Assembly: GCF_024347355.1 (NCBI RefSeq)
Contig: NZ_AP025465.1
Span: forward strand, 1,922,001 to 1,986,000
Direction of reading: 5' to 3'
Source of the DNA: Vibrio chagasii
GTDB lineage: Bacteria; Pseudomonadota; Gammaproteobacteria; Enterobacterales; Vibrionaceae
Length of the DNA stretch: 64,000 nucleotides
Part shown: piece by piece, positions 28,170 through 62,578 of the stretch
How the letters are laid out: the number at the start of each line of letters is the position of its first letter
Position numbering within the stretch: the first letter of the stretch is position 1
Made by a program: the position numbers and the translations under genes
The notes under the pieces: model-generated
Databases searched by the model: none
The model's input: only the letters and a program-made list of their open reading frames with translations
What the model was told of the DNA's origin: nothing

Positions 28170-28781
28170 ATGAAGAAATACATCCCAATATTGATTGCTC
28201 TTAGTACGATGTCCTCAATGAGTTACGCAGCGACTCCACGTGAAGATGCTGTAGACTATTTACAGATGCGTAAAGGCGTGGCTTATCAAGTAAACCACTC
28301 AAAGCCCTTTACCGGTCAATTTGACGAAAAGTTCGATAACGGTCAGATCGCTACTCAAGCCCAGTTTGCCGATGGTCTGGAGCTTGGGTTAGAAACCAAT
28401 TGGTATCCAAATGGACAGATCGCTTCCAAAGTCAATTACGTCAAAGGTCAATTACAAGGTAAAGCAGAAACTTGGTATCCGAATGGGCAGAAAAAAGCCG
28501 AGCTAAACTACAAAGACAACGAACTTTCGGGCGTCGCAACTCGATGGTATCCAAATGGCGAAAAGAGCCTAACTGCAGAGTACAGTGAAGGGCTAAAAGA
28601 TGGCTTGGTGACCGACTACTACACGAATGGCAATAAAGCGACAGAAGCAAAATTCGATGATGGCGAAATCGCCAACGGCAAATTGACCCGCTGGAACCTC
28701 AACGGGGATAAAGTAGAAGAAGTGACCTTTAAAGATCACCAGGTCACATCTAAACAAGTTTGGATGCCTACACAAAGCTAA
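28170..28781 (+). CDS. Secreted MORN-variant (YwqK-like) repeat protein
   Basis: A 203-residue exported protein with signal peptide M-K-K-Y-I-P-I-L-I-A-L-S, cleaved near S-Y-A. The mature part has about five repeats of roughly 23 residues built around W-Y-P-N-G-Q-x-x-x-x-x-x-Y, the MORN-variant motif. This motif is found in proteins often annotated as YwqK-family antitoxins. No toxin gene is adjacent, so I treat that label as misleading; a periplasmic or surface binding role is more likely. Start with AAAAGGTG upstream. Nothing suggests an operon. Confidence 0.75.
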   Translation: MKKYIPILIALSTMSSMSYAATPREDAVDYLQMRKGVAYQVNHSKPFTGQFDEKFDNGQIATQAQFADGLELGLETNWYPNGQIASKVNYVKGQLQGKAETWYPNGQKKAELNYKDNELSGVATRWYPNGEKSLTAEYSEGLKDGLVTDYYTNGNKATEAKFDDGEIANGKLTRWNLNGDKVEEVTFKDHQVTSKQVWMPTQS

Positions 28782-42600: not shown

Positions 42601-45600
42601 AAGTGATGGTTTCTGTTTGGCTAACCGCACTACCACTTGGTAATGAGCCATCAGCCAGATCCGCTTCTTCAAGAGCAACACTCGGTACCGCATCGATAGT
42701 CGGGTTATCGCCATCGGTTATGGTCAAAGTAACGGTTGCAGTGACCAGATCGTTATCAAAGTCATTGGATGTCACGATTATCGACTTAACAATGTCTTCG
42801 CTCGCGGAATGGTCTAAGTTACGGTTGGGCTCAAAGCGCATCTCACCTTGAAGGGTGATGTACAACTCACCTTCTGTGAAACTGAATTGCTGTTCGCCTG
42901 CGATACTCTGATCCAACGTTTTAACGATGCCACCAAAAGAAAACTCAGTAACCGTCGCACCATCAGCACTTTGGTTTGGCATTACATCAAGGGTATTAGT
43001 TGTTACCGTGCCATCAGCCAGATTTGGCTCAACGATATCTAGCGTGCCATCTTGCATGATTTGGATATCATCACCGATGGTTACATTCAGTTGAGACACT
43101 AAAGAATCATCGCCATCGCTGTCTACCGCATAAACTGGAAGATCAAAGCTCAGATCATTGTTCGCTAGGCCATCTGCATGGTCTAACGCTTCCAATAAAG
43201 TAAAGGTGTATTCACCGAGAGTCGTGGTCGAGAAGCTAACCGTGAATACTGGGATTTCAGTATTTGAGCCATCAGTAATAAAGCCGATATAAGTACCCGG
43301 ATTCGCTGAATCTTCTTTTATCTCGACCGCAAAACCATTCGATTTCAGTGCACCACCAACATTGAACTCGGTAGGTTCAATACAGAAATGGGTCACATCA
43401 TCACTTTGATTAGTAAAAGTGATCGTCTCAGTTTGACTTACAGCACCGCCACTTGGTGCTGAGCCATCAGCAAGGTTGGTTTCAGAAAGAGTAACGCTTG
43501 GCACCGTATTAATGGTCGGGATATCACCATCGGTAATCGTCAGGATGACTGTCGAGGTCACGGTGTCCTTATCGAAATCGCTTGAGGTGACCTCGATCTG
43601 TTTCACGATATCTCCACCAGTATGGTCGAGATTACGGTTCGGCTCGAAGCGAACATCACCTTGGATAGTGATATACAGTGAACCTTCAGCAACTACGAAC
43701 TTCTGCTCGCCAGTATTATTCTGGTCAAGCGTTAATACAACCCCGCCATCATAAGTAAATTGCGTGATGGTCGCGCCGTCTGCCCCTTCTTGATCAAATA
43801 CATTAACGGTAGTTGTCGTGGGCGTGCCCGCAGCCAAATCGGCAACTGTTGGCTCGACAATATTTAGAGATCCATCTTGCATGATTTGAACATCATCACC
43901 GATGGTCACATTCAACTGTGACACCAATGAATCATCGCCGTCGGTGTCTACCGCATAAACAGGAAGATCAAAGCTAAGATCGTTGTTCGCTAAACCATCC
44001 ACATGGTCTAACGCTTCTAATAACGTGAAAGTGTATTGGCCGAGGGTAGTACTAGAGAAACTGATCGTGAACACGTTGGTTTCGACGTTCGACCCATCAG
44101 TCACAAAACCGATGTAACCACCTGGTGTGCTTGGGTCTGCTTTTAGCTCAACCACCAGCCCATTTGATTTGAGCGCTCCACCTACATTGAATTCTGTCGG
44201 TTCAATACGGAAACTCGCGACATCATCACTTTGATTGGTAAAGGTAATCGTCTCTGTTTGACTTACTGCAGAACCGCTTGGCGTAGAACCATCACTCAAA
44301 TTAGTTTCAGATAAAGTAACACTCGGTACATTGTCGATCGTAGGAATATCACCATCAGTAATAGTCAACGTGATTGTAGAAGTAACAACATCACTATCTG
44401 AGTCGGTTGAAGTCACTACTATCGACTTAACGATGTCTCCACTTGTGTGGTCGAGGTTACGATTTGGTTCAAAGCGCACATCACCTTGCAGCGTGACATA
44501 AAGCGAACCTTCAGCAACCACAAACTTCTGCTCTCCCGTATTGTTCTGGTCAAGCGTAAACACCGTGCCGTTGTCATAATTGATTTGGGTGATGGTCGTG
44601 CCGTCAGCCCCTTCTTGATCAAGAACATTCACAGTCGTAGTTGTCGGCGCACCCGCAGCTAAATCAGCGACAGTCGGCTCTTCAATCGTAAACGCGCCAT
44701 CTACCATGACTTGGATATCATCGGTAATCGTCACAGCAAGTGGCGACATGAGAGAATCATCGCCATCACTATCGACAGCGTACACAGGCAAGTTGAATGT
44801 TAGGTCGTTATTACCTTGAATTGGTGTGTGATCAATCGCTTCTATAAGCGTGAAGGTGTATTCACCTAAAGTCGTGCTGCTGAATGCAAGTGTGAAGACA
44901 GTAGTCTCGACATTTGAAGTGTCTGTGGTGAAGCCTATGTAGTTACCCGAACCCGCAGGCTCTTCTCGAATCTCAATCACCAAGCCATCAGACTTAAGAG
45001 TACCGCCAATGTTAAACTCACTCGGCTCCAAACGGAACTTTTCAACATCATCACTTTGGTTGGTAAAAGTGATGGTTTCTGTTTGGCTAACCGCACTACC
45101 ACTTGGTGATGAGCCATCAGCGAGATCTGCTTCTTTCAGTGATACGCTCGGTATCGCATCGATAGTTGGGTTATCACCGTCGGTGATAGTCAGAGTAACC
45201 GTTGATGTTACTGGGTCTTTATCGAAATCACTTGAGGTAACCTCTATCAACTTCACGATGTCTTCACTCAAGGAGTGGTCTAGGTTGCGGTTTGGTTCAA
45301 ATCGCACCTCACCTTGCAGCGTGATAAATAACTCACCCTCTGTGAAGCTGAATTGCTGCTCACCCGTGTCATTTTGGTCAAGCGTTCGAAGTTGACCGTC
45401 ATAGGTGAACTGAGTAATCGTCGCGCCATCAGCACTTTGGTTTGGCATCACATCAATAGTGTTGGTGGTCACCGTACCGTCAGCAAGATTAGGCTCGACG
45501 ATATCTAATGTGCCATCTTGCATGATTTGAACATCATCACCGATAGTCACATTCAGTTGAGACACAACAGAATCATCGCCATCGTTGTCTACCGCATATA

Positions 45601-48232
45601 CTGGAAGATCAAAGTTCAGATCATTGTTCGCTAGGCCATCCACATGGTCTAGCGCTTCAAGTAAAGTAAAGGTGTATTCACCTAACGTAGAAGCAGAGAA
45701 GCTAATGGTGAACACAGGGATTTCAGAGCCCGAACCGTTAGTAATAAAACCGATATAAGTACCCGGATTAGAAGAATCTTCTTTTATCTCGACTGCAAGC
45801 CCTTGGGACGTCAGTGCCCCACCGACATTGAACTCAGTAGGCTCAATGCGGAAATTCGCCACATCATCACTACCAGCAGTAAAGGTGATCGTATCGGTTG
45901 CGCTTACTGCACTTCCACTTGGTGCAGAGCCATCAGCTAGATTGGTTTCAGATAAAGTAACAGGTGGAATCAGATTGATTGCCGGGTTTTGACCATCGGT
46001 AATACTTAACTCAAGCGTTGATGTATCAGTGTCGCCATCACCGTCTTCGGCTAAAAATGAAAACTGTTTGATGATAGTTTCGCTACTTGAATGATCGATA
46101 TCACGAGCAACTTCAAAACTGAAATCACCGTTTAACGAGATAGTGACCACACCCTCTGTAAAACTGAAGGTTTGAGGCGCATCAGGTAGTAAGCTTTGAT
46201 CTAATGAATAATCAACGCCGTCGTAGTTGAATGATTGAATAGTCGAACCATCCGCACCTTCGAAATTAAACAGGTTATATGAGACAACGGTATCGCCCGC
46301 CAAAGTCGGCTCAATGACCGACTCAACTTTATCAACAATATCAACGACATCATCTTTAACATTGATGAGAATTTCAGCGGCTTCTGGTGTGTTCGAACCG
46401 CCAGATAGTGCTGAACGGTCTCCATCCGCGTCAACGGCATAAATAGGCAGAGCAAAGGTTAACTGTGCATCTTCAGCGCCTTGATGTGACAGTTCTTCAT
46501 AGAGGTTAAATTCATAGCTACCCAAGGATGGGCTATCAATTTTCACATCAAAGACCGTAATTCTAGAGCCATTGACTTCAACATAGCCTTCGTAAGTTCT
46601 TACACCGTTAGTTTCATCAATAAGCTCAAGCAATACGGCTTCGCCATTAGACGTTAAATAACCACCAGTATTAAACTCCGTAGGTTCAAGCTCGTAATGA
46701 TCGATGATGTCGCTTTCAAAAATATCGGCAGTGATGCTTCCGCTACCCGCTACGGGCGCGGTTCCCTCTTGAGATCCACCAACAATACCAGCTTCATCAA
46801 CATCAATACTGTCAACATTGGTCACAACCGGGCTATCGCCATCAGTAATCTCAATGTTAATGGTATTAGTTACAACATCTTGGTCAAAGTCCGTAACCGT
46901 GATCGGCAGCGAAAAAGAGAGTGAGTCAGTGCCGATCTGTTCGATCGGATTAAACTGCTCAAATTTAAAAGTGCCATCGGTATCAAGTGAGATAGTAAGG
47001 ACCACCTCGCCACGACCTTGGATTGCCAGAGTGATCGTCGTGCCATCATCAGAAAGTCTGGCCAGCGTGTTCTGATTATCACTGAGTACGCCATCAAACT
47101 GTTCTAATGCACTTGCATCGAAGACTGCTGATTGAAGGTTATCACTACCAATATTTGAAAACGTGCCTTCAATTGCAGCACTGCTTGTTTCAACGTTACT
47201 GATATTCACACTTTCAGCAGACGGATCTACCCCGTCAAAGACGGTCACTTGCGCATTGATCGGTGTGACAAGCTCATTACCTGCGGTGTCTTGACCTTGT
47301 ATGTCGAAGGCGATGTTGATTTGGTCGCCCGTAAAGGAAACCTGACCGCCACCAATTGACGGGACATGATCTATCGGTTGGGAAACAGTTGTGGTCAGCG
47401 ATAATTCAACGTCATTTCCAACACTCACGGCATCAATATCGATGCGCAGTACTTCATCTGTACCTTGAACACCAATAATCGAATTGGAGGCTGAATCAAA
47501 CGTAAAAGTTACCGGTTGACCACTAGAGGTAATGTCGCTATTAAGTTCACTAAGGAGCGAGGCGAGAGAAAGTGTTTCTGGAGCAAAAGAATCTGGGTCA
47601 AGCGCTAAACTACCCGCAACAACGGTATCAGTAACCGTCACAGATTGAGGGTAAGTATTGCCTGAAATGGAACCTTCGGTAAGTGCTTCAGCGATGGATT
47701 GACCACCCGATGAGAGCGTGATCGATCTAAGCTCTTCTCTGTCTTCATCAACAGATTGCACTTCTAGACCAGAAGTTTCAAAGAAGGTCGAAGGATGAGT
47801 TTCTATGTAGGTGTAATCTATAGTAACAAAGCCTGCGTTTGCAGAACCTAGACCACCACCAGCAGCGGTAGCTTCTAAAATTTGAGTTGGATCGGCACCA
47901 CCTAAAATGGCTTCTTGGATGGCTGCAAGGTCATCATCAGTAAATGAATCATCAGCAGCTTGCGCCAAATCGATATTCACCTCTCCGGCGATAGGCGCAT
48001 CTGCCCAAGCCAAGTCTTGATCGACACACCCAACACAATTGCCCTCAACCTCAACAGGGCCGCTAGGCAAACCTATTAGGAGTTCAGCATCATGCGCGGT
48101 AATAACAATCTCATTTTCACGGATGATATCGCCAACCGAAACTTTTCTGGCACTGCCTTCAGGCTTAACTACAACCACATCTCCACTGGTAGCTTCAACT
48201 ACCACAGTCTGACGCGAAACTTCGATATCCAT
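30680..48232 (-). CDS. Giant LapA/VCA0849-type RTX adhesin, type I secreted
   Basis: A 5850-residue surface adhesin. The N-terminal retention module (residues about 1-120) should lodge in the outer-membrane pore of its type I exporter. T-A-A-G at 122-125 is the expected LapG protease site for release from the cell. After a linker, about nine tandem T1SS-143-type double repeats of roughly 270 residues span about 745-3080. Diverged copies and many cadherin/Ig-like domains follow (for example E-V-N-D-Q-P boundaries near 5200-5330). The C-terminus has RTX nonapeptides (G-G-A-G-D-D-T-L-I and similar, about 5700-5745) and the VCA0849-type secretion signal. Strong ribosome site GGGGGAT before ATG 48232. 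Transporter, LapD and LapG genes are absent from the window. Confidence 0.93.
38990..46010 (-). repeat. Tandem T1SS-143 repeat array inside the adhesin gene
   Basis: About nine units of roughly 810-825 bp encode the pattern L-x-E-x-x-L-x-D-G-S-x-P-S-G through F-E-P-N-R-N-L-(D/N)-H. Units 1, 2 and 3 match units 4, 5 and 6 best: corresponding landmarks lie 2466 bp apart for units 1/4 (42961 and 45427) and 2/5 (42255 and 44721), and 2463 bp apart for 3/6 (41361 and 43824). This shows a duplication of a three-unit block. Such arrays recombine, so assembly length should be treated with care. Confidence 0.85.
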
Positions 48233-48890: not shown

Positions 48891-49199
48891 TTATGATCTA
48901 GCTAGACGATTCGCCGTCCAAACATAAAGCAGCTCAAGCGCAATCGTAGCACCCGCTAACGCTGTGATGTCACTTTGGTCGTACGCTGGAGACACTTCTA
49001 CAACGTCCATACCAACCATGTTGATACCCTGCAAACCACGGATGATTTTCAGAACTTTATCTGAGTTCAAACCACCACACACTGGCGTGCCAGTACCCGG
49101 TGCAAAAGCAGGATCAAGACAGTCGATATCAAACGTCAGATACACTGGCTTATCACCAACAATACCTTTCACTTGATCCACACTCATGTCATTGGCCAC
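48891..49199 (-). pseudogene. speB: C-terminal third of agmatinase
   Basis: The 102 codons match the end of agmatinase, which turns agmatine into putrescine and urea: [12 protein letters not shown] with metal-binding aspartates, P-G-T-G-T-P-V-x-G-G, then [10 protein letters not shown] normal enzyme has about 306 residues, so about 200 N-terminal residues, including the first metal ligands, are gone. Similarity stops at about 49200, immediately beside the terminator of the secreted-protein operon. The start shown is a GTG that only opens the fragment. The native terminator survives downstream. I read this as one edge of inserted or replaced DNA. Confidence 0.85.
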
Positions 49200-49241: not shown

Positions 49242-49258
49242 AGAAGCCAAAGGCTTCT
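49242..49258 (-). terminator. Intrinsic terminator of the secreted-protein operon
   Basis: AGAAGCC (49242-49248) pairs with GGCTTCT (49252-49258). On the minus strand seven T follow. It lies 27 bp after the last operon gene. Confidence 0.9.
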
Positions 49259-49284: not shown

Positions 49285-51081
49285 TTAGATTCGGGATTGT
49301 TCCAGCACATTTTCTGCATAGTTTTTAAGGCTTGTGATCCCTATAGTTGGGATATACTCCTCAAGCGCATCAATCGCTTCTGGGTACTGAATCGCCATGC
49401 TCCCAAGCAAATCAATCAGCTGCTTAATCACTTGCTGGTTAGTTTCAGCAAATAGACGTTCTCTGTATACCTGAACAAACTCAGATTGCGGCGTGGTGAA
49501 ACTCAGGCCTGCTGATGCGATTTCTCGAACGCGTTCATCTTCAGCTTCCAATAAGCCAAGCAACACAGATTGAGCTTCTGGTGTATTCACGAATCGGAGT
49601 GAATTGACGGCCGCATGGCGCACGGATTTATTCTCATGGCTTAAGAATGGCGTAACCTTATCTATTTGGTTAGGTGAACCAATGTTACCAAGCACACTTA
49701 GTGAATCAGCGATATCGCTCGCGTCTGAAGCCTGACTCAATTCAAGCTCAAACTGTTGATAAAGCTTATTGCCCCTGTCTTCATCTCTGTCCAGTAAATT
49801 ATTCGCCATGCTACCTAACACCAATTTTGCCTGTACTTGATCTTCATGTTTAAAGAGCGTTTGAGACATTGTCTGAACCGTATCAACGCTTGCTTGAGTC
49901 GGCTCTTTTAGGAATGCAAGCTTTAACATGATTGCCTGCTGCTTCGATACCGACGAAGTATTGAGTACATCCAATAAAATTTGCTGGGCCCCCGGTGAGC
50001 CAACATTAACCAAAAGTGCACTCAGCATTTGAAATGACGGGTGGCTGGCGTTGTACATTCGCATCCACTCTTCTATCTGAGCCAGTTTAGAGGGGTCCAA
50101 CGTAACCCAGGCACGAAGCTCAAAGAACAACTGAGAGCGCTCTTTATTGCCATAAGACGGCGTTGCGCGCAGACGACCTTTAAAGGTATCAGGGTCAGCA
50201 TTAGACAAGGTATTTTCATACATTTGAGTCTTCAACAGCGCTTTCTGATACGATCCATCTAAAGTATCTTGTACAACTAACCCAACCAAAGCAGTTCTGG
50301 AGTCTGCTATTTTTGACTGAAAAAGATAGTTCAGGCTAAGAGACATACTCTCTCTAGCCATCAAACGGTTAGCGGAAAAGGTACTTCGCTCTCTGTTGGT
50401 TTGAATCTGCTCGATACGTTTAAAGAACCTACTGATCACCACATTCGTGAATTGACTTATGCGGACTTGCGGGTTAAGAGCAATGTACTCTTTTAAGATC
50501 GTAGTATCCAACGTTGGAGAAGAACCTTCCTGCAAGCGGTAACTCACATCGTAATCTGAGGTAAAGTCGCCTTCTACAGTCTGCCAGCTGGCTTTACCGT
50601 CGTTGGTAAGCGAAACCTGAAACTGCCCTATCCACTCCTTTAATACAGGAGAGAACTCTGCGAAGTAACGTTCCTGAAACTCTAAGCCGGATAGATGACC
50701 ATTTTTATTCAGGATGCCCGTTACAACGATGTCTTTCGGCCATACCCAATTCACTTCTTCGTTGATGCTGGCTTTAAAAGTGTCTGCATCAAACGAAAAC
50801 TCCAATTGATAGCCTAATGCATTTTCCTCAATAACATGGATATGCATCTTACCTTTGAAGGCATAGTCCACGTCTATTGAAGAGCCAATAAGGTTGGCAG
50901 ATCCGGTATACCCCGAAGCATAACCAGATGCATCACTGGTGTACTCTAACCCGTAAGTATATGTATTACCGGGCTCGAAACGGATCAAGTACTTTTGCTC
51001 CGTTCCTTTGACATACCCAATCAAAATCATAGCAACAACCCCTGCCATTGTAGCCAAGTACAGCGTTACCTTTGTTGTCAT
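49285..51081 (-). CDS. Exported HEAT-repeat protein with vitellogenin-like N-terminus
   Basis: A 598-residue protein, last gene of a six-gene operon. Residues 5-23 form an uncleaved-looking signal anchor. Residues about 30-130 read like the start of the large lipid transfer protein domain (vitellogenin/MTP): R-F-E-P-G-N-T-Y-T-Y-G-L-E-Y, then beta strands K-G-K-M-H-I-H-V-I-E and Y-Q-L-E-F-S-F. A helical solenoid follows, with clear HEAT repeats near 470-550 (V-R-H-A-A-V-N-S-L, V-R-E-I-A-S-A-G-L). In animals this arrangement binds lipoprotein lipid. The lipid-transfer idea is inference from pattern alone. It starts 19 bp after the 797-codon gene. Confidence 0.7.
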   Translation of the reverse strand: MTTKVTLYLATMAGVVAMILIGYVKGTEQKYLIRFEPGNTYTYGLEYTSDASGYASGYTGSANLIGSSIDVDYAFKGKMHIHVIEENALGYQLEFSFDADTFKASINEEVNWVWPKDIVVTGILNKNGHLSGLEFQERYFAEFSPVLKEWIGQFQVSLTNDGKASWQTVEGDFTSDYDVSYRLQEGSSPTLDTTILKEYIALNPQVRISQFTNVVISRFFKRIEQIQTNRERSTFSANRLMARESMSLSLNYLFQSKIADSRTALVGLVVQDTLDGSYQKALLKTQMYENTLSNADPDTFKGRLRATPSYGNKERSQLFFELRAWVTLDPSKLAQIEEWMRMYNASHPSFQMLSALLVNVGSPGAQQILLDVLNTSSVSKQQAIMLKLAFLKEPTQASVDTVQTMSQTLFKHEDQVQAKLVLGSMANNLLDRDEDRGNKLYQQFELELSQASDASDIADSLSVLGNIGSPNQIDKVTPFLSHENKSVRHAAVNSLRFVNTPEAQSVLLGLLEAEDERVREIASAGLSFTTPQSEFVQVYRERLFAETNQQVIKQLIDLLGSMAIQYPEAIDALEEYIPTIGITSLKNYAENVLEQSRI

Positions 51082-51100
51082 TCTTTACCAACCTAATTTT

Positions 51101-53494
51101 TTAGTGTAGGAACCCGTGCAGGCTTCTTAGCACATTTGCGTTATCAATTTTTTCTTGTTCAATGACCGAAGTCGATGAGGTACCACCAAGCGAACTTACA
51201 GGCACGGAATCACCGAAGTTCAGGGCTTCCATATGCCAGTCAGCGGAGTTTCTAACCATCACTCTCTGAGCACGCGATTGAGCCGAATTATGATCAATCG
51301 TCGCCGCAAGCCAGGACTCATACTGCTCCAGATTTTGCTTAGCCGATTGGTTGCTCAACTGAAACTCTGCTCGTTTTTGAGGAAGTAGGGTAACGGATGG
51401 ACTTTCAAGTTCCTCTTTCAACTTCTTAAAGGTATTTTGAATTCGAACCTGAGTTTTAGAACTATACTCAGTCAAAGCAACGTGCCTCTGATACAAATTC
51501 ACTTTGCCCCTTAACGCATCTGCTTCACGTCGGTCGGTCTGGTCTATCAGAGAACCATTCATCTGAACCCCCTGATAACCATAAACTAGTTGCCAGTTCA
51601 TGATAGGCTTTGACCACGCATAGCCACCGTAGCTATATAGATTCTTTGATTTACGCTTAGATCTGATGCACGGATATGGAATCTTAATGAATCCAACCTT
51701 TTTTTTACATATCTTTATCCAAGGATACTCAACATATGCGCTGATACCACCATTCATTGCCCGAAGTACTGCGTCAGAAGTCAGACCGAGTTTGAGGTAT
51801 GGTTCACCAGACTGAGCGAAGAACACACCAGCTTTACCACGAAGTGGAACAGACAAATTCAATACGTCAATATTACCTCTTACACCTGCCGAAAGGACTT
51901 TTTTGATACCTACAGCCCCTTCACCAAATGCTGCTGCTTTCGCAATTGGTTGAATTTCCGCATACACTTGAGTCATGTATAAACCCCAGTTTAGACGAGC
52001 ATTTGAGCTCGCGTACGCCCCAACACTGATATAAACTGGTATAGGGCCTATCGCGAATTGCTGAGTGTATTCATAAGAATAGCTGTATCCATCACCCCTC
52101 CCCAGAAGCTCTATGCTGTCCTTAATGATACCTTCGTTTTTCAGCCAGTGACGCTTATAAAGCTGATGACCTAGGACTTGAATATCAACATTACCTTCCA
52201 GCTTCTGTGGACCAACTTCAGCTTGCGCATAAGCCCCGATGGCATTGTTTTTTTTATTGAAGATGTAAACATCCGCTCGGCCCACTGCGATCGCCCATTG
52301 AACCTCTTCTGAGCCACGAATCTCGTAGTATGCAGACGCTGTAGTACCAGCAATGCTTCGCTTGCCAAGATCAAAGCCCGTCCAGTCTTTACGCTTCTTA
52401 AGTACCAAATCTGCTCGAGTTGGCGGTTCAAAAGATTCATTAAAGCTGATGCTAGGCACATCAGGGATATCCCAGTTAGTCGGAATGGCAAGCCCCAACT
52501 CTTCGATAGTTTGCTTAATGAACTCAGGAGACGGCATGGTTAACTTGATCTTTAGCCCGTCCAGTTCTAAAAATTCCGAACTCCACTCCATTGCTTTAAC
52601 TAATGGAGACCAAGTCAGAATACTATCGATAGCTGGCAAGTCAAAACCCATTCCGGCCAATGCACTATTGAGATTATCTTCAATGTAAGAGATTACGGCC
52701 TGGGCAGTATTGCCTTCACTTCCGCCGCCAACGATTTGGACTAAACGATCAACATCTACCTCAGTTACACCATTTGAGGTTTTCATTGGCAGATTCATGG
52801 CTTCGTAAACGCTATAGCCAAGTGCACACAAGATCTTATTGGTGTTGTTTGCTGCTCGAATGTACTGATCGAATTTCGCCAGGTCACCAGATTTAAGTCG
52901 ATACGGTTCATCAAGGAATTCCTTTAATTGCTCATCAGCATGGCCCGCGATGTGCCCATTGACCTTTTCCACCAGTCTATCGACATTTATTTGCGGGCAG
53001 CTTCCTGGATCAATAGCGTCCAAACGGCGCATTAATTCTTCGCGAGCATAAAGCTCTAACGCATCCAACAAACGCTTTTGTAACAATTCCGGATCGTTAA
53101 ATAGCTCATAGATATCCACTGGCAACTGTTCAAAGGAATCATCACGCATACTATAGCCGTAAGGTGTGATCTGTGATTCCAGTTGGTTAGCTAAACCAAT
53201 GTACTCGTTGATCTCAATACGCTCTGGCTGAGTTTCCGAAGTTACCCGAAGCAACAAGTAAGTTTTGCCAGATTGAACATCCAGTTCCAGATCGTCATTC
53301 GGGTATTTATTTGCCAACTCTCGAATTTCACTGTCTGTAAACGGGACAAACTCTTTTGGTGTTCTGTCTCCAAGTACGAGTTTGATAATTTCTTCCCCTG
53401 CTGATGCACCTGCATTTTGTGCAAACACGAAAGGCACATCAAAGAAAGTGAATAGAGAAAATAGACAAAACATTTTCTTCAATGTAGACATCAT
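51101..53494 (-). CDS. Large secreted protein of unknown function, operon gene 5
   Basis: A 797-residue protein with signal peptide (K-K-M-F-C-L-F-S-L-F-T-F-F, cleavage near V-F-A-Q). The first half is helical and acidic. From about 380 to 640 the sequence alternates in short strands (for example Y-S-Y-S-Y-E-Y and V-Y-I-S-V-G-A-Y-A) and looks like an extended beta-sheet or barrel rich in Gly and Tyr. The last 130 residues are again helical and basic. Few cysteines. It overlaps the upstream gene by four bases and precedes the vitellogenin-like gene by 19 bp. The beta-rich centre next to a lipid-transfer-like partner suggests a shared complex, but I recognise no family. Confidence 0.7.
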   Translation of the reverse strand: MMSTLKKMFCLFSLFTFFDVPFVFAQNAGASAGEEIIKLVLGDRTPKEFVPFTDSEIRELANKYPNDDLELDVQSGKTYLLLRVTSETQPERIEINEYIGLANQLESQITPYGYSMRDDSFEQLPVDIYELFNDPELLQKRLLDALELYAREELMRRLDAIDPGSCPQINVDRLVEKVNGHIAGHADEQLKEFLDEPYRLKSGDLAKFDQYIRAANNTNKILCALGYSVYEAMNLPMKTSNGVTEVDVDRLVQIVGGGSEGNTAQAVISYIEDNLNSALAGMGFDLPAIDSILTWSPLVKAMEWSSEFLELDGLKIKLTMPSPEFIKQTIEELGLAIPTNWDIPDVPSISFNESFEPPTRADLVLKKRKDWTGFDLGKRSIAGTTASAYYEIRGSEEVQWAIAVGRADVYIFNKKNNAIGAYAQAEVGPQKLEGNVDIQVLGHQLYKRHWLKNEGIIKDSIELLGRGDGYSYSYEYTQQFAIGPIPVYISVGAYASSNARLNWGLYMTQVYAEIQPIAKAAAFGEGAVGIKKVLSAGVRGNIDVLNLSVPLRGKAGVFFAQSGEPYLKLGLTSDAVLRAMNGGISAYVEYPWIKICKKKVGFIKIPYPCIRSKRKSKNLYSYGGYAWSKPIMNWQLVYGYQGVQMNGSLIDQTDRREADALRGKVNLYQRHVALTEYSSKTQVRIQNTFKKLKEELESPSVTLLPQKRAEFQLSNQSAKQNLEQYESWLAATIDHNSAQSRAQRVMVRNSADWHMEALNFGDSVPVSSLGGTSSTSVIEQEKIDNANVLRSLHGFLH

Positions 53495-54624
53495 TGTATC
53501 ACCTCCGAGAAAGGTGCTTGAGGAACACGAGATAACTGAGCATGCAGATAACGCTGCTGATCAAGCGTCATTTTTTGAATAGCGGTACGATCCAACCCAA
53601 TCAAACTTTTCAGTAACGCGCAGTTATATTTCTGGTGGTTTGCCGAAATTTTACATTGCGGTGCATACGTTGACAGAGTCCTCCGATAAACATCATAAAG
53701 GGTAATGTATGCCCTTCTTTGAGCCACAATAAGAGCATGTTTTGCATCGTTGTACTTTCTGTCCATAAAATTCAGACTCGGCTGCTTCAAAGAGGCTTCT
53801 AAAGGGCTGCTAATGATTCGTACTCTGTCTTTTTGATAACTGGCTTCAAAGACTCTGAAATGTGCGTCAGCAAGGAACCAGTCTCGGCGTGCTCGTGACA
53901 TGACAAACGATGCCGCTTTAGATGCATCATCAACAGGTTTGGACACTAGTGACTCAACCGCAAAAAGTTGCTTTAAGTTCTCTAGCGACTCAGTTAACTC
54001 AGGGTATTGAAGCCTTGAAAGGTTGATGATTGACGCCAATACTTCACTGGTTAGCAACAGAGCACTCTCTAAACGAGACATCTGCTCAACTGTGAATGTT
54101 TTGCTGATATCGTCAAAAGCACCATAAGTTGTGGTGACATTTGTATTCAAAGCAGGAATTGTTGTGCTGAACTCCTGGATGTAATCCGTCGGATACTGAG
54201 GTATGTCATTCAGAACCGCCATGCCTCGGACAGCCTGCTTACGGATTTGAGAAGATTCATCAATTGCTGTGTAGAGTTCATTGAGTAGCAGAGACGTTTC
54301 ACTTTTAAATGCACCTGCATCCGATTTCGCTAAGGTTTGATGATCACTTAAACGACGCCTTAAATCGTTCATTTTATTCATCCAGACATTATGTTCGTCA
54401 TACCATTTCGATACTTTGTCTGATACACCATTTTGTCCTAAGTAGTGCTCGTCTCTTGCCAATCTGTACTGACTCAATGATTGTAATATTTGATCAATTC
54501 GATAATTGAGTTGATTGAGTGACTTTTGCTGGTTGTCCAACTGTTCAGAGGTCACGTTCGCTGCGATTGCATTTCCCTGAAATAGCGCCAATAGCAAAGC
54601 CGCTCCAACTAGCCTAACTTTCAT
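53491..54624 (-). CDS. Secreted alpha-helical protein, operon gene 4
   Basis: A 377-residue protein with a clean signal peptide (M-K-V-R-L-V-G-A-A-L-L-L-A-L, cleavage near A-I-A-A). The mature part is almost entirely helical. An N-terminal coiled coil is likely (Q-L-D-N-Q-Q-K-S-L-N-Q-L), with two cysteines near the C-terminus (C-K-I-S-A-N-H-Q-K-Y-N-C) positioned for a disulphide. No known motif. It follows an intrinsic terminator that separates it from the first three genes. Its stop overlaps the next start as ATGA-type coupling. Confidence 0.68.
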   Translation of the reverse strand: MKVRLVGAALLLALFQGNAIAANVTSEQLDNQQKSLNQLNYRIDQILQSLSQYRLARDEHYLGQNGVSDKVSKWYDEHNVWMNKMNDLRRRLSDHQTLAKSDAGAFKSETSLLLNELYTAIDESSQIRKQAVRGMAVLNDIPQYPTDYIQEFSTTIPALNTNVTTTYGAFDDISKTFTVEQMSRLESALLLTSEVLASIINLSRLQYPELTESLENLKQLFAVESLVSKPVDDASKAASFVMSRARRDWFLADAHFRVFEASYQKDRVRIISSPLEASLKQPSLNFMDRKYNDAKHALIVAQRRAYITLYDVYRRTLSTYAPQCKISANHQKYNCALLKSLIGLDRTAIQKMTLDQQRYLHAQLSRVPQAPFSEVIQ

Positions 54625-54662
54625 GTTATACCCAGTAGAAATAAATATAAGAGAATAAAAAT

Positions 54663-54690
54663 GCCACTTAAGCGAATTAACTTAAGTGGC
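54663..54690 (-). terminator. Internal terminator between operon genes 3 and 4
   Basis: GCCACTTAAG (54663-54672) pairs perfectly with CTTAAGTGGC (54681-54690). On the minus strand the stem is followed by ATTTTTATT, a good intrinsic terminator. It should lower expression of the three downstream genes relative to the first three unless a promoter lies within the 40 bp after it. Confidence 0.8.
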
Positions 54691-54698
54691 TTGATTGA

Positions 54699-56270
54699 TT
54701 AAAGTTCAGCTAACTTATCTTGAAGTGCTTCAAGTTTTTCTCGATCGAGACTACGGGCGTTTCTTGCCACCGCTAACGTGTGCTCAATAACATTCTCAAG
54801 CGCCAAAATTTTTCGGCTATTTATCGTTTTCATGCTTTCAATGATAGAACGCAGATCTGAACTATTGGTATCAGAATAGGATATATCGCCAGTTAACTGC
54901 GCTAGAGAAATTAAGAATTCCCAATGCGCATAATGGACAGTCTCGTATTTCTTATAACCGGACTCATCGTAAAGATAATCAAAGTCAAAATTGAACAAGT
55001 TCTCTATACCACCAACACTAGTTTGTTGAGACAACTGGTTTAACTTTTCAAAATTTGGCCTTGAATTTACTGGGTCATGTAAGGACGTTTCCATGACCAG
55101 CGTCCATTCCATACTTAGGGCATCAAATTCTAAAGGAATATAACCCGCAGTGAAGAAATCAGGCACAAATACCGTCGTGGCAATCCTGTCCCATATGGTC
55201 GCCATTTCTTGCGTAATCTGATGTTTCATGTCGTTGCTTGAACGAAGTAAGTTCTCCAGAGACTGTCTTTCCACAATCAAAGAATTCGCTTCAGCAACAA
55301 GAACATCAGCCAGTCTTTCTAGCTCAGTAATGTATTCCGTTCCACCCGTAACATCCAGGTTCACACGCCAGTGCGGTTCGCTCAGGTCTTGACTGTTAAC
55401 AACAGCAAACTTGACAGGGCTAGTACCACATCGTATCAAAAAGGTTTTCAACGCGTTAGGCTCAAATCCTCCGATACCAGAATCAGATGCGACGCCAATT
55501 TTTGATAGGTTGGAACCTTTATAGTAGAGCGGCACGTTAACTGAAGGCACAGTGGTGTTATCCACACAGCTCAATTCATAATATGCAGATGGCAAAACTT
55601 CAGATTTGAAGCTCCCAGACCACTTTGAAGTCACGTTTGTTGGCATCGGAGTCAAATTCGTCACTTCTGCTGATATAAAGGTCGTAATGTCACCAACTAT
55701 GATTGGTACTAAGCCAAGGTTTTTAGAGATTCGGTTCTTCTTAACAATCTCTTTCAGTTCCCCACTGTAGTCTGCTCTCGGTACTTTGTAGGTAAGATCA
55801 GCCTGCACAGGCGTCACCATTAAGTTGTTGCTTACACAGGTTTCAATATTCCCGGACACACTACAGTGAGAACCACGGTGATAGTATGTAGATTTATCAA
55901 ATTGATATGGCCCACTTCCACAACTGATAACATTTGCGAACTTGCCCGTATTAGTGTTGAACGCTTCATATACTGCTGCACAATTTTGGAGTTTTCTACT
56001 CACTGAAAACTCAGGATGACTCTGTCTGACACTTAATTCGCCCGCTAAATCTAAGCTTTCCGGATAAAGAACGATTGAAGTTTGGCTCGGCGACAAGGTT
56101 TTACGTTTGGTAGGTAAGGTATGCTCACTGACCCAATCGTCCAAACTGCAAGACCACTGAGCATGAGCAGGGTATTCATTGGAGCTAAGCGTACAGGTAC
56201 TAGCAGCACTGGTGAACGTGACACCAGACAACACTACACCTATGGTTAGGTATAAGTTAGATAGTTTCAT
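54699..56270 (-). CDS. Secreted protein of unknown function, operon gene 3
   Basis: A 523-residue protein from the ATG at 56270, chosen because it begins a standard signal peptide (M-K-L-S-N-L-Y-L-T-I-G-V-V-L) and AAGGA lies upstream. An ATG four codons earlier overlaps the previous stop. The N-terminal 300 residues are beta-rich with about ten cysteines (pairs such as C-T-L...W-S-C and C-S-V-S-G...C), so disulphides are expected. From about 330 the protein is helical, with E-R-L-A-D-V-L-V-A-E-A-N-S-L coiled-coil character, and ends in a basic coiled coil. This two-part design, binding head and helical stalk, is only a structural reading. Confidence 0.68.
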   Translation of the reverse strand: MKLSNLYLTIGVVLSGVTFTSAASTCTLSSNEYPAHAQWSCSLDDWVSEHTLPTKRKTLSPSQTSIVLYPESLDLAGELSVRQSHPEFSVSRKLQNCAAVYEAFNTNTGKFANVISCGSGPYQFDKSTYYHRGSHCSVSGNIETCVSNNLMVTPVQADLTYKVPRADYSGELKEIVKKNRISKNLGLVPIIVGDITTFISAEVTNLTPMPTNVTSKWSGSFKSEVLPSAYYELSCVDNTTVPSVNVPLYYKGSNLSKIGVASDSGIGGFEPNALKTFLIRCGTSPVKFAVVNSQDLSEPHWRVNLDVTGGTEYITELERLADVLVAEANSLIVERQSLENLLRSSNDMKHQITQEMATIWDRIATTVFVPDFFTAGYIPLEFDALSMEWTLVMETSLHDPVNSRPNFEKLNQLSQQTSVGGIENLFNFDFDYLYDESGYKKYETVHYAHWEFLISLAQLTGDISYSDTNSSDLRSIIESMKTINSRKILALENVIEHTLAVARNARSLDREKLEALQDKLAEL

Positions 56271-56278
56271 AGAGCTAA

Positions 56279-56590
56279 TCATTCCTTAATCATTTGATAA
56301 CTCTGAACAACAGGACTGCCCTGCTCACACGCTTCAGATATATGGAATTTCACTTTAGTTTTCGTGAACATTGCAGACGCTAGTACCGAAATAGTTTGCT
56401 GTTCAGAGGTAGAAACCAGTACTTGATTCCCTGCGCAGTCACTTGTAATGTTGAGTACATTCGGTAACACAATTTCGCAATACTCGCTGTCCATAGCACA
56501 CTGTATATTACTGATTTCACTGTCATAAGTACCAGCGGCATTCACTCCAACTGAAAACAAAGCAAGACTGAGAAAAGTTTTGAATCTCAT
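56279..56590 (-). CDS. Small secreted four-cysteine protein B, operon gene 2
   Basis: A 103-residue protein with signal peptide M-R-F-K-T-F-L-S-L-A-L-F-S-V-G-V-N-A-A. The mature domain has cysteines spaced like its upstream neighbour: I-Q-C-x6-C near the start, a third in S-D-C-A-G-N, and the last in S-E-A-C. S-E-Q-x7-L-A-S-A-M sits between the last two. It is a paralogue of gene 1. The L-A-S-A-M segment followed by a Val-rich strand and a late Cys recalls small secreted B-subunit-like proteins, but this is weak. It lies 9 bp downstream of gene 1 and overlaps or abuts gene 3. Confidence 0.68.
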   Translation of the reverse strand: MRFKTFLSLALFSVGVNAAGTYDSEISNIQCAMDSEYCEIVLPNVLNITSDCAGNQVLVSTSEQQTISVLASAMFTKTKVKFHISEACEQGSPVVQSYQMIKE

Positions 56591-56599
56591 ACTTCCTCC

Positions 56600-56938
56600 T
56601 TAATTAACGCTTTTGCGCGCAACTACATTGAAAGAGGCCAGTTCAGGCAGTGTGTTGTAACAAGTGTTGGAAAGTTCGAGCTCAACCTGATGGTGTGTCA
56701 TCATGGCAGATGAAAGAAGCGCTACAGCTAACTTTCCTTGCTCGCTATCAGATTCCCAGGTGATTTTGTTTGCAGTACATTCAGCCGGACCCATCTGCTC
56801 TAAATTTAAGGTCAAAAAACAACGGTTTGTTGCCTGATCACACCCTAGGCTTTGAATAGATGCAGTTGGAAGTCTCTGAGCCATCGCGACCGTTCCAAAC
56901 AAGGACAACCCCAAAGTGATAAATAACTTATGTTTCAT
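56600..56938 (-). CDS. Small secreted four-cysteine protein A, operon gene 1
   Basis: A 112-residue protein with signal peptide M-K-H-K-L-F-I-T-L-G-L-S-L-F-G, cleaved near A-M-A-Q. The mature part shows S-I-Q-S-L-G-C-x6-C-F-L-T-L, A-E-C-T-A-N, S-E-Q-G-K-L-A-V-A-L-L-S-S-A-M and S-N-T-C, the same four-cysteine layout as gene 2. The two are therefore a tandem duplication. It is the promoter-proximal gene, so it is expected to be the most abundant product. The AT-rich region upstream (56939-57250) should hold the promoter. Confidence 0.68.
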   Translation of the reverse strand: MKHKLFITLGLSLFGTVAMAQRLPTASIQSLGCDQATNRCFLTLNLEQMGPAECTANKITWESDSEQGKLAVALLSSAMMTHHQVELELSNTCYNTLPELASFNVVARKSVN

Positions 56939-59400: not shown

Positions 59401-59560
59401 ATCGTATGCCTCTTATCCTAGAGGAGCTTTTTCTTTTTTGCTTTCTCGGGTTCTAACGAAAACTGTGATAAAGACGTCGCAGAGCCATTATCCAGACACA
59501 ATGATCTTGCGAGTATAGAAAATGCTCAGAGGCTGTCTGGCCCTCAGAATCTATCTGATC

Positions 59561-59702
59561 TTATCTAGACACCGTCCACACCTCACGCTCATGCAAACTG
59601 GCCAAAGCTCCTTTCGTTACAATCGAACTTAGCGCTTGATGTGCTTTCTGCTTCACCCAACGGTGACTCTGCCCAACGATATTGTTCAGGTACTTAATGT
59701 CC
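59561..59702 (-). mobile_element. 3' scrap of an IS6-family transposase gene
   Basis: About 46 codons on the minus strand read D-I-K-Y-L-N-N-I-V-G-Q-S-H-R-W-V-K, the hallmark Y-L-N-N-x-V-E-Q-x-H-R region of IS6-family transposases, and run to a stop at 59561. Similarity ends abruptly at 59702, exactly where the methyltransferase sequence begins. No inverted repeats were found, so the element is incomplete. Confidence 0.65.
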
Positions 59703-60324
59703 AAAACCTCTAGCCGTACTAGACGATGTTAAAGGGCTCGATATTGTCGACCTTGGTTGCGGATCAGGTATATACGCACAATGGTATATCGACCAAGGTG
59801 CCAACAAAGTCACCTATACCGACCTGTCTCAAGATATGGTTGACCTAGTGAACGGAAAACAAATCCCCAATGTGACCGCATACGCGCAAGATGCAGCTCT
59901 TGGTTTACCCAAAGAAGCCGATAACAGCGCTGATGTCATTGTGTGCCCGTTGGTGCTGCATTACATTGAAGATCTAAAACCTGTCTTTGATGACGTGTAT
60001 CGCGTTTTGAAACCAGGTGGCTACATCGTGTTTTCCACTCACCACCTATTTGCGGATTTCGAGTGCACCCTCTCAGGTAAATACTTTGAGCGCGAATTTA
60101 TTCAAGAAGAGTGGAACACGGTCGGCACACCCGTTCAGGTAAGCTTCTACCGCCGTTCATTAACAGAGCTTTGCCAAGCGGTCAGCCAATCTGGCTTGCT
60201 GATTTCACAAATCACTGAAGGCACAATCGACGAGAAAGCCAAAGCCATCTCTGAAGAAACGTACGGGCGTCTATCAAAAAACGTTAACTTCATCTTCATG
60301 CGTTGCGAGAAAGTTTCAGCCTAA
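59703..60324 (+). pseudogene. 5'-truncated SAM-dependent methyltransferase
   Basis: The frame reads from about 59703 through P-L-A-V-L-D-D-V-K-G-L-D-I-V-D-L-G-C-G-S-G-I (SAM motif I), Y-T-D-L-S-Q-D-M-V, C-P-L-V-L-H-Y-I-E-D and V-L-K-P-G-G-Y-I-V-F to the stop at 60324. The class I core is present, but no start codon exists before motif I, and an in-frame stop lies just upstream in IS6-derived sequence. The first internal ATG (59836) would produce a 162-residue protein lacking motif I. The N-terminal 40 or so residues were lost when the IS-bearing DNA joined here. Confidence 0.75.
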
Positions 60325-60557: not shown

Positions 60558-61994
60558 ATGAGCCATAATCTAGACCTTGAACCAAACACGTCGAGCACCA
60601 ACGACATGGATCAAATATTCAACCGACAACAAGATCACTACCGTAACAACGTTAATCCAACACTTGAGCAGAGACGAAATGATCTCTCAGTCTTGAAAAA
60701 ACTATTAATGCGTTATCAAGAGCAGTTAATTGAAGCGGTATCTGAAGATTATGGCCATCGAGCAAAGCACGACAGCTTAATTGCTGACATCACACCTTCT
60801 CTACACCAGATTAATTACAGTGATAAAAATCTTAAGAAGTGGTTGAAGCCTTCACGTCGTAAAGCCGGCTTGATGCTAACACCAGCCAAAATTACTGTGC
60901 ATTATCAGCCAGTAGGTGTAGTTGGCATCATCGTGCCTTGGAACTTCCCTGTTATGCTCTCTTTGGGTCCTCTCATCACAGCATTGGCTGCAGGTAACAC
61001 TGCAATGCTCAAGATGTCTGAGTTTACCCCTGCAACCAACCGTGTTTTGAAAACGATGTTGGCCGAAGGTTTCAGTGAAGAACAAGTGGCGATCATCGAA
61101 GGTGAAGCCGAAGTTTCTGCTAAGTTTAGCCAGCTGCCGTTTGACCATATCCTATTCACAGGCTCAACCTCTGTTGGTAAGCACGTAATGAAAGCCGCAG
61201 CTGCTAACCTAACGCCAGTGACACTTGAACTTGGCGGGAAATCTCCAACCATCATCGCACCAGATTTCGATGTCGCAGACGCGGTTGAACGTATCCTGTT
61301 TGCCAAGAGCCTAAACGCAGGTCAAATCTGTGTCGCACCAGATTACATCTTGCTGCCACGAGAGAAAGTCGATGCATTTATCACCGCTTACAAACGTTAC
61401 TTCAAGAAGCTCTATAAAGCAGGAATTGAGAGCAAAGACTTAACCTCAGTGGTTAACATGCGCCAGTACAATCGATTAAAAGGTGTAGTTGAAGATGCGA
61501 AGTCAAAAGGTGCTGTAATACACACCGTTACCGAGCAGGCACAAGACGATGTGAACCACAGAATGACACCGCACCTTCTCACCGAAGTGAATGATGACAT
61601 GGTGGCAATGCAAGAAGAGTTGTTTGGCCCTGTTCTCCCAATCGTGCCTTATGATTCGATTGACGAGGCAATAAGCTACATCACAACAAGAGAACGTCCA
61701 CTTGCGCTGTACCTAATGAGTCACGACAAGAAAACCCAAGACCGATTCCTATCGGATACACACTCTGGCGGTGTTTGTATCAATGACTCTTTGGTGCATG
61801 TGGCAGCGGAAGACGCACCGTTTGGTGGTATTGGCCCTTCAGGCATGGGACACTACCACGGCATTGAAGGCTTCAAGACCTTTAGCCATGCAAAAACCGT
61901 GTTGACTCGAGGCAAGATCAACTTCACTAAGTTGATGCACCCTCCATACAACAACCCAATCAAGAAAATGATGTTCAAAGTACTGAATCGATGA
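60558..61994 (+). CDS. Coniferyl-aldehyde-dehydrogenase-like NAD(P)+ enzyme
   Basis: A 478-residue member of the aldehyde dehydrogenase superfamily that oxidises an aldehyde to its acid. It has V-P-W-N-F-P (cofactor site, about residue 127), F-T-G-S-T-S-V-G-K (about 201), the catalytic Glu in L-E-L-G-G-K-S-P, and the nucleophile Cys in N-A-G-Q-I-C-V-A. The C-terminal end H-P-P-Y, with a class-3-like hydrophobic tail M-M-F-K-V-L, fits the coniferyl/fatty aldehyde group. The true substrate is open. The gene overlaps its TetR regulator by four bases and has an operator upstream, so it is likely induced by a toxic or lipid aldehyde. Confidence 0.88.
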   Translation: MSHNLDLEPNTSSTNDMDQIFNRQQDHYRNNVNPTLEQRRNDLSVLKKLLMRYQEQLIEAVSEDYGHRAKHDSLIADITPSLHQINYSDKNLKKWLKPSRRKAGLMLTPAKITVHYQPVGVVGIIVPWNFPVMLSLGPLITALAAGNTAMLKMSEFTPATNRVLKTMLAEGFSEEQVAIIEGEAEVSAKFSQLPFDHILFTGSTSVGKHVMKAAAANLTPVTLELGGKSPTIIAPDFDVADAVERILFAKSLNAGQICVAPDYILLPREKVDAFITAYKRYFKKLYKAGIESKDLTSVVNMRQYNRLKGVVEDAKSKGAVIHTVTEQAQDDVNHRMTPHLLTEVNDDMVAMQEELFGPVLPIVPYDSIDEAISYITTRERPLALYLMSHDKKTQDRFLSDTHSGGVCINDSLVHVAAEDAPFGGIGPSGMGHYHGIEGFKTFSHAKTVLTRGKINFTKLMHPPYNNPIKKMMFKVLNR

Positions 61995-62578
61995 TGACAA
62001 AAAGGCAAAAAATCCTAGATGCTGCGCTCCTACTCTTCTCCCAACAAGGGTTAGAGGGCACATCTACAGGGCAAATAGCGAAGACCGCTGGTGTAGCAAA
62101 AGCGACACTGTTTCATCACTTTGAGAACAAATCTCTACTGATTGATGAGCTGTTTCGTGAGTTGAAAGTAGAGCTATTTTCTACTCTGACTCAACACACA
62201 GAAATCGCTGAACAAAATCGCTATCAAGCCTTTAAATTCATGTGGATGACCGGAATTGAGTGGGCACTGGAAAACCCAGTCGCCATGAAATTCTTCACCA
62301 ATGTGCACTTTGACCCAACGACTCAAACTCGTGAAGTCATTGTCTCGCAGATGTTTGCGTCACTCGATGACATCATTTTGAAAGGACAGCAAGCCGAAGA
62401 ATTGATGGTGTTAGACATTAATCTCGTTAGACACTTCATCCATAGCCACTTTTTGATCTGTGCGAACTGGCTTGTTGATCAGCAAGAGCCGCAGGCAGAG
62501 CAGTCAGAAAAGTATATCAACGACAGTTTTGATATGTGCTGGCGTGCTATTGGTGGTCAAGCGCAGCCGTCCTGTTAG
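61991..62578 (+). CDS. TetR/AcrR-family transcriptional regulator
   Basis: A 195-residue repressor. The N-terminal helix-turn-helix spans residues about 10-50 (I-L-D-A-A-L-L-L-F-S-Q-Q-G, T-S-T-G-Q-I-A-K-T-A-G-V-A-K-A-T-L-F-H-H-F). The C-terminal ligand domain is helical. Its ATG lies within the end of the aldehyde dehydrogenase gene (ATGATGA overlap), so both are translated from one message. It most likely binds the inverted repeat at 60517-60536. Confidence 0.92.
   Translation: MMTKRQKILDAALLLFSQQGLEGTSTGQIAKTAGVAKATLFHHFENKSLLIDELFRELKVELFSTLTQHTEIAEQNRYQAFKFMWMTGIEWALENPVAMKFFTNVHFDPTTQTREVIVSQMFASLDDIILKGQQAEELMVLDINLVRHFIHSHFLICANWLVDQQEPQAEQSEKYINDSFDMCWRAIGGQAQPSC

Follow-up and report, generated by a model that had tools for sequence, protein, structure and literature searches.

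A two-gene module with an apparent relative of the N-terminal module of animal large lipid transfer proteins, within a conserved six-gene cluster of exported proteins in Vibrio chagasii

The window analysed here is a stretch of 64,000 nucleotides of Vibrio chagasii (contig NZ_AP025465.1, positions 1,922,001 to 1,986,000), and all window positions given below count from its first letter. Six consecutive minus-strand genes, designated g1 to g6, encode proteins that appear to be exported or membrane-anchored, and the last of them resembles the N-terminal module of the animal large lipid transfer proteins (LLTPs), the superfamily of vitellogenin, microsomal triglyceride transfer protein (MTP) and apolipoprotein B (apoB), with which animals build egg yolk and blood lipoproteins. 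A check of open reading frames (ORFs) found all six uninterrupted by internal stops and placed as in the original prediction, a reading of the sequence alone. The first two genes, g1 (56600..56938, 112 amino acids (aa)) and g2 (56279..56590, 103 aa), encode paralogous exported proteins with four mutually aligned cysteines (Cys 33, 40, 54 and 93 in g1, Cys 31, 38, 52 and 88 in g2). The 527 aa exported product of g3 (54699..56282) carries eight cysteines, all within residues 1-285, and that of g4 (53491..54624, 377 aa, exported) is helical judging by alpha-type periodicity. The exported g5 protein (51101..53494, 797 aa) consists, in a low-confidence model, of helical N- and C-terminal parts around a beta domain, and g6 (49285..51081) encodes 598 aa. 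The intergenic distances from g1 to g6 are 9, -4, 74, -4 and 19 bp, four of the five being 20 bp or less. As read from the sequence, g1-g5 have signal-peptide-like N-termini and g6 an uncleaved-looking anchor. The earlier description of a tight row of exported or anchored products, with two small four-cysteine paralogues and a cysteine-rich head on g3, is thus borne out. Comparison of the g1/g2, g3, g4 and g5 proteins with PDB sequences gave nothing below E 0.1, the NCBIfam search of all six gave matches only below the family cut-offs, and no significant match was found for g3 in profile searches of Pfam, NCBIfam and PDB sequences or for g4 in Pfam and PDB sequence searches.

The affiliation of g6 is indicated first by Pfam: its residues 334-552 match Vitellogenin_N (PF01347) with E 4.7e-13 and 49 bits against a cut-off of 24, adjoining a HEAT_2 match. 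The vitellogenin-like and HEAT character assigned earlier to the last gene therefore holds, and is extended here to the first two LLTP domains. An AlphaFold2 model built from 8 sequences (mean pLDDT 74, with low confidence at residues 55-67, 161-181 and 256-280) predicts three successive parts: an N-terminal hydrophobic anchor, also evident in the sequence and modelled as a helix at residues 2-26 (51004..51078, minus strand); a strand-rich, barrel-like domain at residues 30-275 (50257..50994, minus strand) with a long helix at 137-158; and an alpha-helical superhelix at residues 276-598 (49288..50256, minus strand), recognised as HEAT repeats by Pfam and fold comparison as well as in the model, in which helices continue to the terminal residue 598. 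The best seven Foldseek matches of this model in the PDB are all LLTPs (vitellogenin, MTP and apoB, E 3.8e-12 to 7.6e-8), led by lipovitellin (1lsh, E 3.8e-12), and designed HEAT proteins follow after them (E 3.4e-6). Alignments of the model to MTP and lipovitellin by VIA cover model residues 34-588, that is, both domains.

HEAT repeats alone could mimic a Vitellogenin_N match, and for this reason the barrel part was looked for. In two relatives the match crosses both domains: it spans profile positions 76-526 of 590 in locus L030 (48.8 bits) and 79-567 in L064 (51.7 bits). Within the N-terminal domain, W166, E170, D172 and Y181 stay unchanged across an alignment of 12 rows from three types of protein, with the conservation of W166 being lost once the proteins of L046 and L047 are added. 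A hidden Markov model (HMM) of the N-domain only, without HEAT, recognises the partner proteins of L054 (E 1.1e-9) and L056 (E 5.3e-6), which shows, at the level of sequence profiles, that the N-domain is shared among bacterial proteins; it did not recognise those of L046, L047 and L055. PF01347 was found in none of 14 control genomes, and precomputed Pfam tags place it on the stored proteins P0010, P0011 and P0012.

Several observations weigh against a relationship with LLTPs. The Foldseek TM-scores are low (0.23-0.39 by query length) with large root-mean-square deviations; VIA gives unrelated HEAT proteins a Z equal to or higher than that of MTP (up to 16.0), in the helical part only; and Vitellogenin_N falls just under the cut-off in the L024 orthologue (23.9 bits) and in L056 (23.1 bits), with no match at all in the HEAT partners of L046, L047, L054 and L055. 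The likeness could then reflect a common barrel-plus-HEAT layout, with g5 and g6 forming a structural or adhesive surface assembly on a HEAT scaffold that handles no lipid. We consider this explanation quite unlikely in view of the uniform LLTP identity of the leading Foldseek matches, the LLTP alignments spanning both domains, the absence of Vitellogenin_N from the control genomes and its alignment through the barrel in two relatives, and the recognition of the isolated N-domain in L054 and L056. Homology of g6 to the N-terminal LLTP module is, on the profile and model comparisons, rather well supported.

The neighbouring gene g5 contributes a second element, a domain at residues 376-662 (51509..52369, minus strand) that is common to otherwise dissimilar exported proteins encoded next to g6-type HEAT genes. 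It is strand-rich in the low-confidence model, and its beta-type amphipathicity exceeds that of shuffled sequences (z 3.7). A beta-domain HMM, built from the g5 orthologues and the stored protein P0007, was run on 642 ORFs from loci fetched around g5- or g6-type genes. At E <=0.1, beyond the g5 copies and three truncated g5 tails (L005, L006 and L009), it matched ten genes and the stored protein P0013 (E 5e-12). These ten genes, encoding three large proteins of family f20 (E 3e-9 to 3e-8) and seven Photobacterium proteins of 288-308 aa (E 5e-5 to 1.5e-3), all adjoin a Vitellogenin_N gene. The link between g5 and the 288-aa proteins alone is weak in profile-profile comparison, and a fold search with the g5 model returned nothing significant. 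The hosts of the domain vary from 288 aa proteins containing it alone, through proteins of 637-841 aa with a lipobox, to open frames of ~3,900-4,100 aa. The giant forms, in L029, L030, L031 and L064 (from f20 and f12, two families of another class), likewise adjoin a Vitellogenin_N gene; in L029-L031 the beta-domain gene is cut off by the limit of the retrieved sequence, leaving an open frame of about 4,000 aa, and the one giant protein scanned against Pfam, that of L029, contains LamG, PA14 and PD40. Outer-membrane barrels lie at the C-terminus of their proteins and end in a terminal aromatic signal. An outer-membrane beta-barrel was accordingly rejected as an identity for the g5 domain, which is not C-terminal and lacks that signal: 135 residues follow it in g5 and >1,000 in L029-L031, and the seven forms of 288-308 aa end in K or Q.

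In all 22 copies whose surroundings were read, the window included, the beta-domain gene adjoins a HEAT gene, with gaps of -37 to 99 bp as called. The 22 pairs come from five families, and the beta-domain gene stands first in 21 of them and second in one. They are far from 22 independent events, because 15 (including that of the window) belong to one family and some loci share flanks (L001 with L002, L003 with L024); the count includes L056, where the beta-domain gene is partly masked and the match weak (E 0.0032, or 2.5e-4 with the extended profile described below), and leaves out P0007 and P0013, which lie on short metagenome contigs. In 19 pairs the HEAT partner has a supported N domain; in three (L046, L047 and L055) none was detected. 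Support here means a Pfam stretch, an N-domain HMM match, or a protein that belongs to the aligned types or is closely orthologous to one of them, rather than a test pair by pair. Among the 296 genomes of the family, 10 gave matches to Vitellogenin_N (12 in all) and 12 gave matches to the beta domain (14 in all), PF01347 genome counts here and elsewhere being lower bounds (genome G326 gave none, though its protein scores 51.7 bits). The 12 strong beta-domain matches adjoin the 12 Vitellogenin_N matches, and the two weak ones (G218 and G071) adjoin HEAT proteins with no Vitellogenin_N match. In family f20, where 15 of the 18 genomes listed were sampled, the genomes with the beta domain are the same three that have Vitellogenin_N. 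A divergent pair is present in two further genomes of the genus of the window (L046 7789-11643 and, with reversed gene order, L047 9775-13370), consisting of a lipobox beta-domain protein and a HEAT protein with no Vitellogenin_N match. After extension with these two, the beta-domain profile gave 3 matches in 369 genomes of the class and 4 in 349 genomes of the phylum, 1 of the latter new, and all four new genes adjoin a HEAT protein.

The adjacency of g5 and g6 is thus well supported. Four families besides that of the window also contain the core pair, with no g1-g4 close by in the loci read. Since every one of the 22 copies adjoins a HEAT protein, g5-g6 is, on this genomic evidence, a general bacterial two-gene module, expanded in the window by four exported proteins. 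The constancy of one partner and the diversity of the other admit a functional explanation other than lipid transfer. The beta domain resides in very unlike exported proteins while the HEAT partners stay at 552-677 aa, which fits a constant helper with varied clients: g6 would be an envelope-anchored assembly factor that helps the beta-domain protein to fold or to be exported, in the way MTP serves apoB, and would itself carry no lipid; the beta-domain protein would be the working product at the surface or in secreted form. MTP does act on apoB via its barrel and helical domains (PMC3337244). Against this arrangement, the 288-aa form has little beyond the beta domain, which suggests that the pair exists for the domain itself and not for a passenger attached to it. 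This chaperone-and-client arrangement is possible if on the unlikely side, and it is the main rival to the reading of g5 and g6 as a split LLTP.

The case for a split LLTP follows from comparison with the known members. In MTP, an N-terminal barrel (22-297) and a helical domain (298-603) precede a C-terminal beta-sheet domain (604-894) for lipid binding and transfer (PMC3337244); the lipid site is elsewhere described as a sandwich of two beta-sheets (PMC7444587), and the N-terminal module is termed the marker for LLTPs in a third source (PMC1783640). The g6 protein has the barrel and helical domains of the MTP M subunit in the same order and at similar length, with the fold alignment over residues 34-588 and the Vitellogenin_N match noted above. 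It differs in stopping where the C-terminal lipid-binding sheets of MTP start, with a beta domain encoded in the neighbouring gene instead, in possessing a membrane anchor and no cysteine, and in that none of the six genes is PDI-like. At 552-677 aa, all 22 HEAT partners likewise lack the length for C-terminal lipid sheets. With vitellogenin, lipovitellin and apoB, g6 has the N-terminal module in common, as its best Foldseek match indicates, but it contains no C-terminal sheets, DUF1081, vWD or other Pfam domain, and the system is bacterial and divided between two genes. The HEAT_2 repeats at the C-terminus link g6 to bacterial HEAT-repeat proteins (phycobilin lyases) and to the designed alphaReps; these are named as HEAT proteins alone, and g6 appears to stand apart from them by its N-terminal beta domain and its beta-domain neighbour. 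Because the lipid sheets are absent from the same chain, the module is not an ordinary LLTP member, although it carries the marker module of the superfamily.

Since g6 has the first two MTP domains at nearly the same size and the neighbouring gene supplies a beta domain of comparable size, a split LLTP is the simplest mechanism. We tentatively propose, with a confidence just short of an even chance, that g5 and g6 together make up a bacterial relative of the animal LLTPs, split into two halves, which handles a hydrophobic molecule of the envelope, likeliest a lipid or lipidated product. The g6 protein, a beta-barrel followed by a HEAT horseshoe, would be anchored in the inner membrane through its N-terminal helix, facing the periplasm, and g5 would provide a separately encoded beta-sheet domain where MTP has its C-terminal lipid-binding sheets. 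The two might form a cavity or docking face that takes the hydrophobic molecule out of the inner membrane, to be moved or assembled toward the outer membrane or cell surface, with g1-g4 of the six-gene form possibly serving as exported accessory parts or receivers. The contact between g5 and g6, the beta domain as lipid site, the lipid ligand, the membrane placement and the transport direction are inferred. Two of the pairs, L054 and L056, combine a HEAT protein that opens with a hydrophobic anchor and a beta-domain protein whose lipobox lacks Asp at position +2. Lipoproteins lacking Asp at this position are sorted to the outer membrane, so the two partners would reside in opposite membranes; g5 itself has no lipobox. 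The lipid handling suggested in the original prediction remains plausible as far as homology and domain architecture carry it.

The complete six-gene set recurs in the same order and with close spacing in five of five related loci from Vibrio and Photobacterium, each with orthologues of g1. A scan of the genome collection with g5 found four of them, in two V. penaeicida strains (L001 and L002), Photobacterium salinisoli (L003) and Vibrio sp. S9_S30 (L004), and the fifth, of Photobacterium type, lies in genome G106 (L024). Identity to the window proteins is ~64-80% in the Vibrio loci (47% for g3 of L001) and 32-56% in the two Photobacterium-type loci, and the closest relatives of the g5 and g6 proteins, from V. 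nigripulchritudo, are 93% identical each. The expectation of a conserved exported system is supported by this collinearity. The genes g3 and g4 are present in exactly the five carriers among 70 genomes chosen from the 296 of the family, and no unlinked copies were found of g3 and g4 in these genomes or of g5 and g6 in the samples searched, whereas the g1/g2 family also occurs outside the cluster. Besides the five carriers, it has two stray copies, one in a carrier and one in a non-carrier, each the first gene in a run of three small exported four-cysteine proteins (L085 6969-8065 and L086 7384-8450, g1/g2 profile E 1.7e-10 and 2.4e-10). These runs resemble the cluster in their first gene and differ from it in that no g5- or g6-type gene was seen in either locus read by eye; a Pfam scan of two of their proteins gave no match. 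In both Photobacterium loci, g6 is followed on its own strand by more small exported genes (109-119 aa), four in L003 (14557-17091) and three in L024 (10533-11675), similar in layout to g1/g2 but with no significant match to the g1/g2 profile (best E 0.056).

The carriers might suggest another role. V. nigripulchritudo and V. penaeicida are shrimp-associated, and with all products looking exported an island of bacteria associated with marine animals could here encode a secreted toxin or virulence complex, the four-cysteine proteins acting as binding subunits and the helical proteins as pore parts. No toxin domain was found in the six proteins in Pfam, NCBIfam, PDB-sequence and PHROG searches, a missing match being no exclusion, and the matches of g4 to a toxin component extend over ~60 residues with E 0.24 or worse. 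The set is also found outside Vibrio in P. salinisoli, and in four other families the core pair stands without neighbouring g1-g4 in the loci read. A toxin complex is thus highly improbable, and the toxin-like character raised in the original prediction gains no support from any of these searches or from PADLOC. PADLOC reported only a HEAT-repeat stretch of HEAT-ARM_XIII in g6 (E 9.8e-9, 70 of 1972 positions) and RdrB in g4 (E 0.001); a phage or defence origin is considered unlikely on these PADLOC and PHROG searches, with all six products looking exported.

The transcriptional unity of the six genes is less clear. The 74 bp gap between g3 and g4 contains a terminator-like hairpin of 11 pairs with a T-rich tail (54663..54690, minus strand), and a hairpin is found in this gap in six of six loci (the window, L001-L004 and L024) in four sequence forms, its T tail being weak in the two Photobacterium loci. 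Terminator-like sites in the scan, which include one downstream of g6 (49242..49258, minus strand), are no commoner than in shuffled sequences (7 found against 7.4 expected), and the case for the g3-g4 hairpin therefore rests on its recurrence across loci; promoter sites show no excess either (11 against 19.8 in shuffles). With this hairpin in place, the six genes need not form one uniform transcript, and g1-g3 may differ in output from g4-g6. A one-transcript operon of six genes was rejected as the natural unit on account of the recurrent hairpin and of g5-g6 pairs occurring without g1-g4. Of the six-gene operon originally described, the conserved order and close spacing stand, while the core is the two-gene module of the g5 beta domain and g6.

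The chromosomal setting of the cluster differs between carriers, with at least three further settings beyond that of the window. Flanks are common to the two V. penaeicida loci and likewise to the two Photobacterium loci; V. penaeicida and S9_S30 have one upstream gene in common at differing distances; and the window flanks have no gene in common with V. penaeicida, a distant aldehyde dehydrogenase (27%) being all that links them to S9_S30. An aldehyde dehydrogenase/TetR pair lies within a few kb of the cluster, on differing sides, in the window (60558-62578), L003 (19319-21527) and L024 (13249-15357). The same pair is present at this site without the cluster in the nearest comparison genome, G001, and its proximity is possibly a coincidence. 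No g5 was found in the plasmid and phage records searched. In the window, the segment 49197..59710 has no counterpart in G001, where homology to the right flank stops ~3 kb from the start of homology to the left flank and the interval (L059 3243-7207) contains an intact methyltransferase gene, speA (arginine decarboxylase, E 2.6e-264) and speB (agmatinase). The segment replaces speA, most of speB and the 5' part of the methyltransferase gene. It is bordered by a truncated speB (48891..49199, minus strand) of which the C-terminal 102 aa remain, a 189 bp scrap of an IS6-family transposase (59524..59712, 85.8% identity) at its right edge, and a truncated methyltransferase gene (59836..60324, plus strand) with 162 aa left of the 234 aa in G001; nothing convincing was found in the way of repeats at the edges. 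At this site the window strain is therefore without speA and most of speB, the biosynthetic arginine decarboxylase/agmatinase route. Because G001 has these genes intact where the window has the segment and their remnants, the cluster is, judging by this comparison, cargo that replaced polyamine genes, in agreement with the original prediction of island cargo flanked by truncated genes and IS scraps. Immediately downstream of the cluster, 30680-48232 (minus strand) encodes a repetitive protein of 5,850 aa that contains numerous similar repeats and ends in a C-terminal stretch of GGxGxD type; by eye it resembles a giant type-I-secreted adhesin. The interval 28170-28781 (plus strand) encodes a MORN-repeat-variant protein (PF07661).

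LLTPs are described in animals in passages of two sources (PMC1783640, PMC3337244), and the word 'bacteria' appears in neither main text. The open-licence literature, to which our search was confined with subscription papers and preprints outside it, yielded no account of the partner domain, of its pairing or of the six-gene form. The module might be a two-subunit prokaryotic counterpart of the animal LLTPs, possibly near their ancestor, that shuttles lipid across the envelope, with the single-chain animal proteins having arisen by fusion of the two genes; we regard this wider proposal as speculative and unlikely. If the split-LLTP reading is true, bacterial members with a separate beta-domain gene would give the LLTP superfamily a prokaryotic branch and make its origin testable, and would point to an undescribed form of lipid handling or surface-protein assembly in Gram-negative envelopes.

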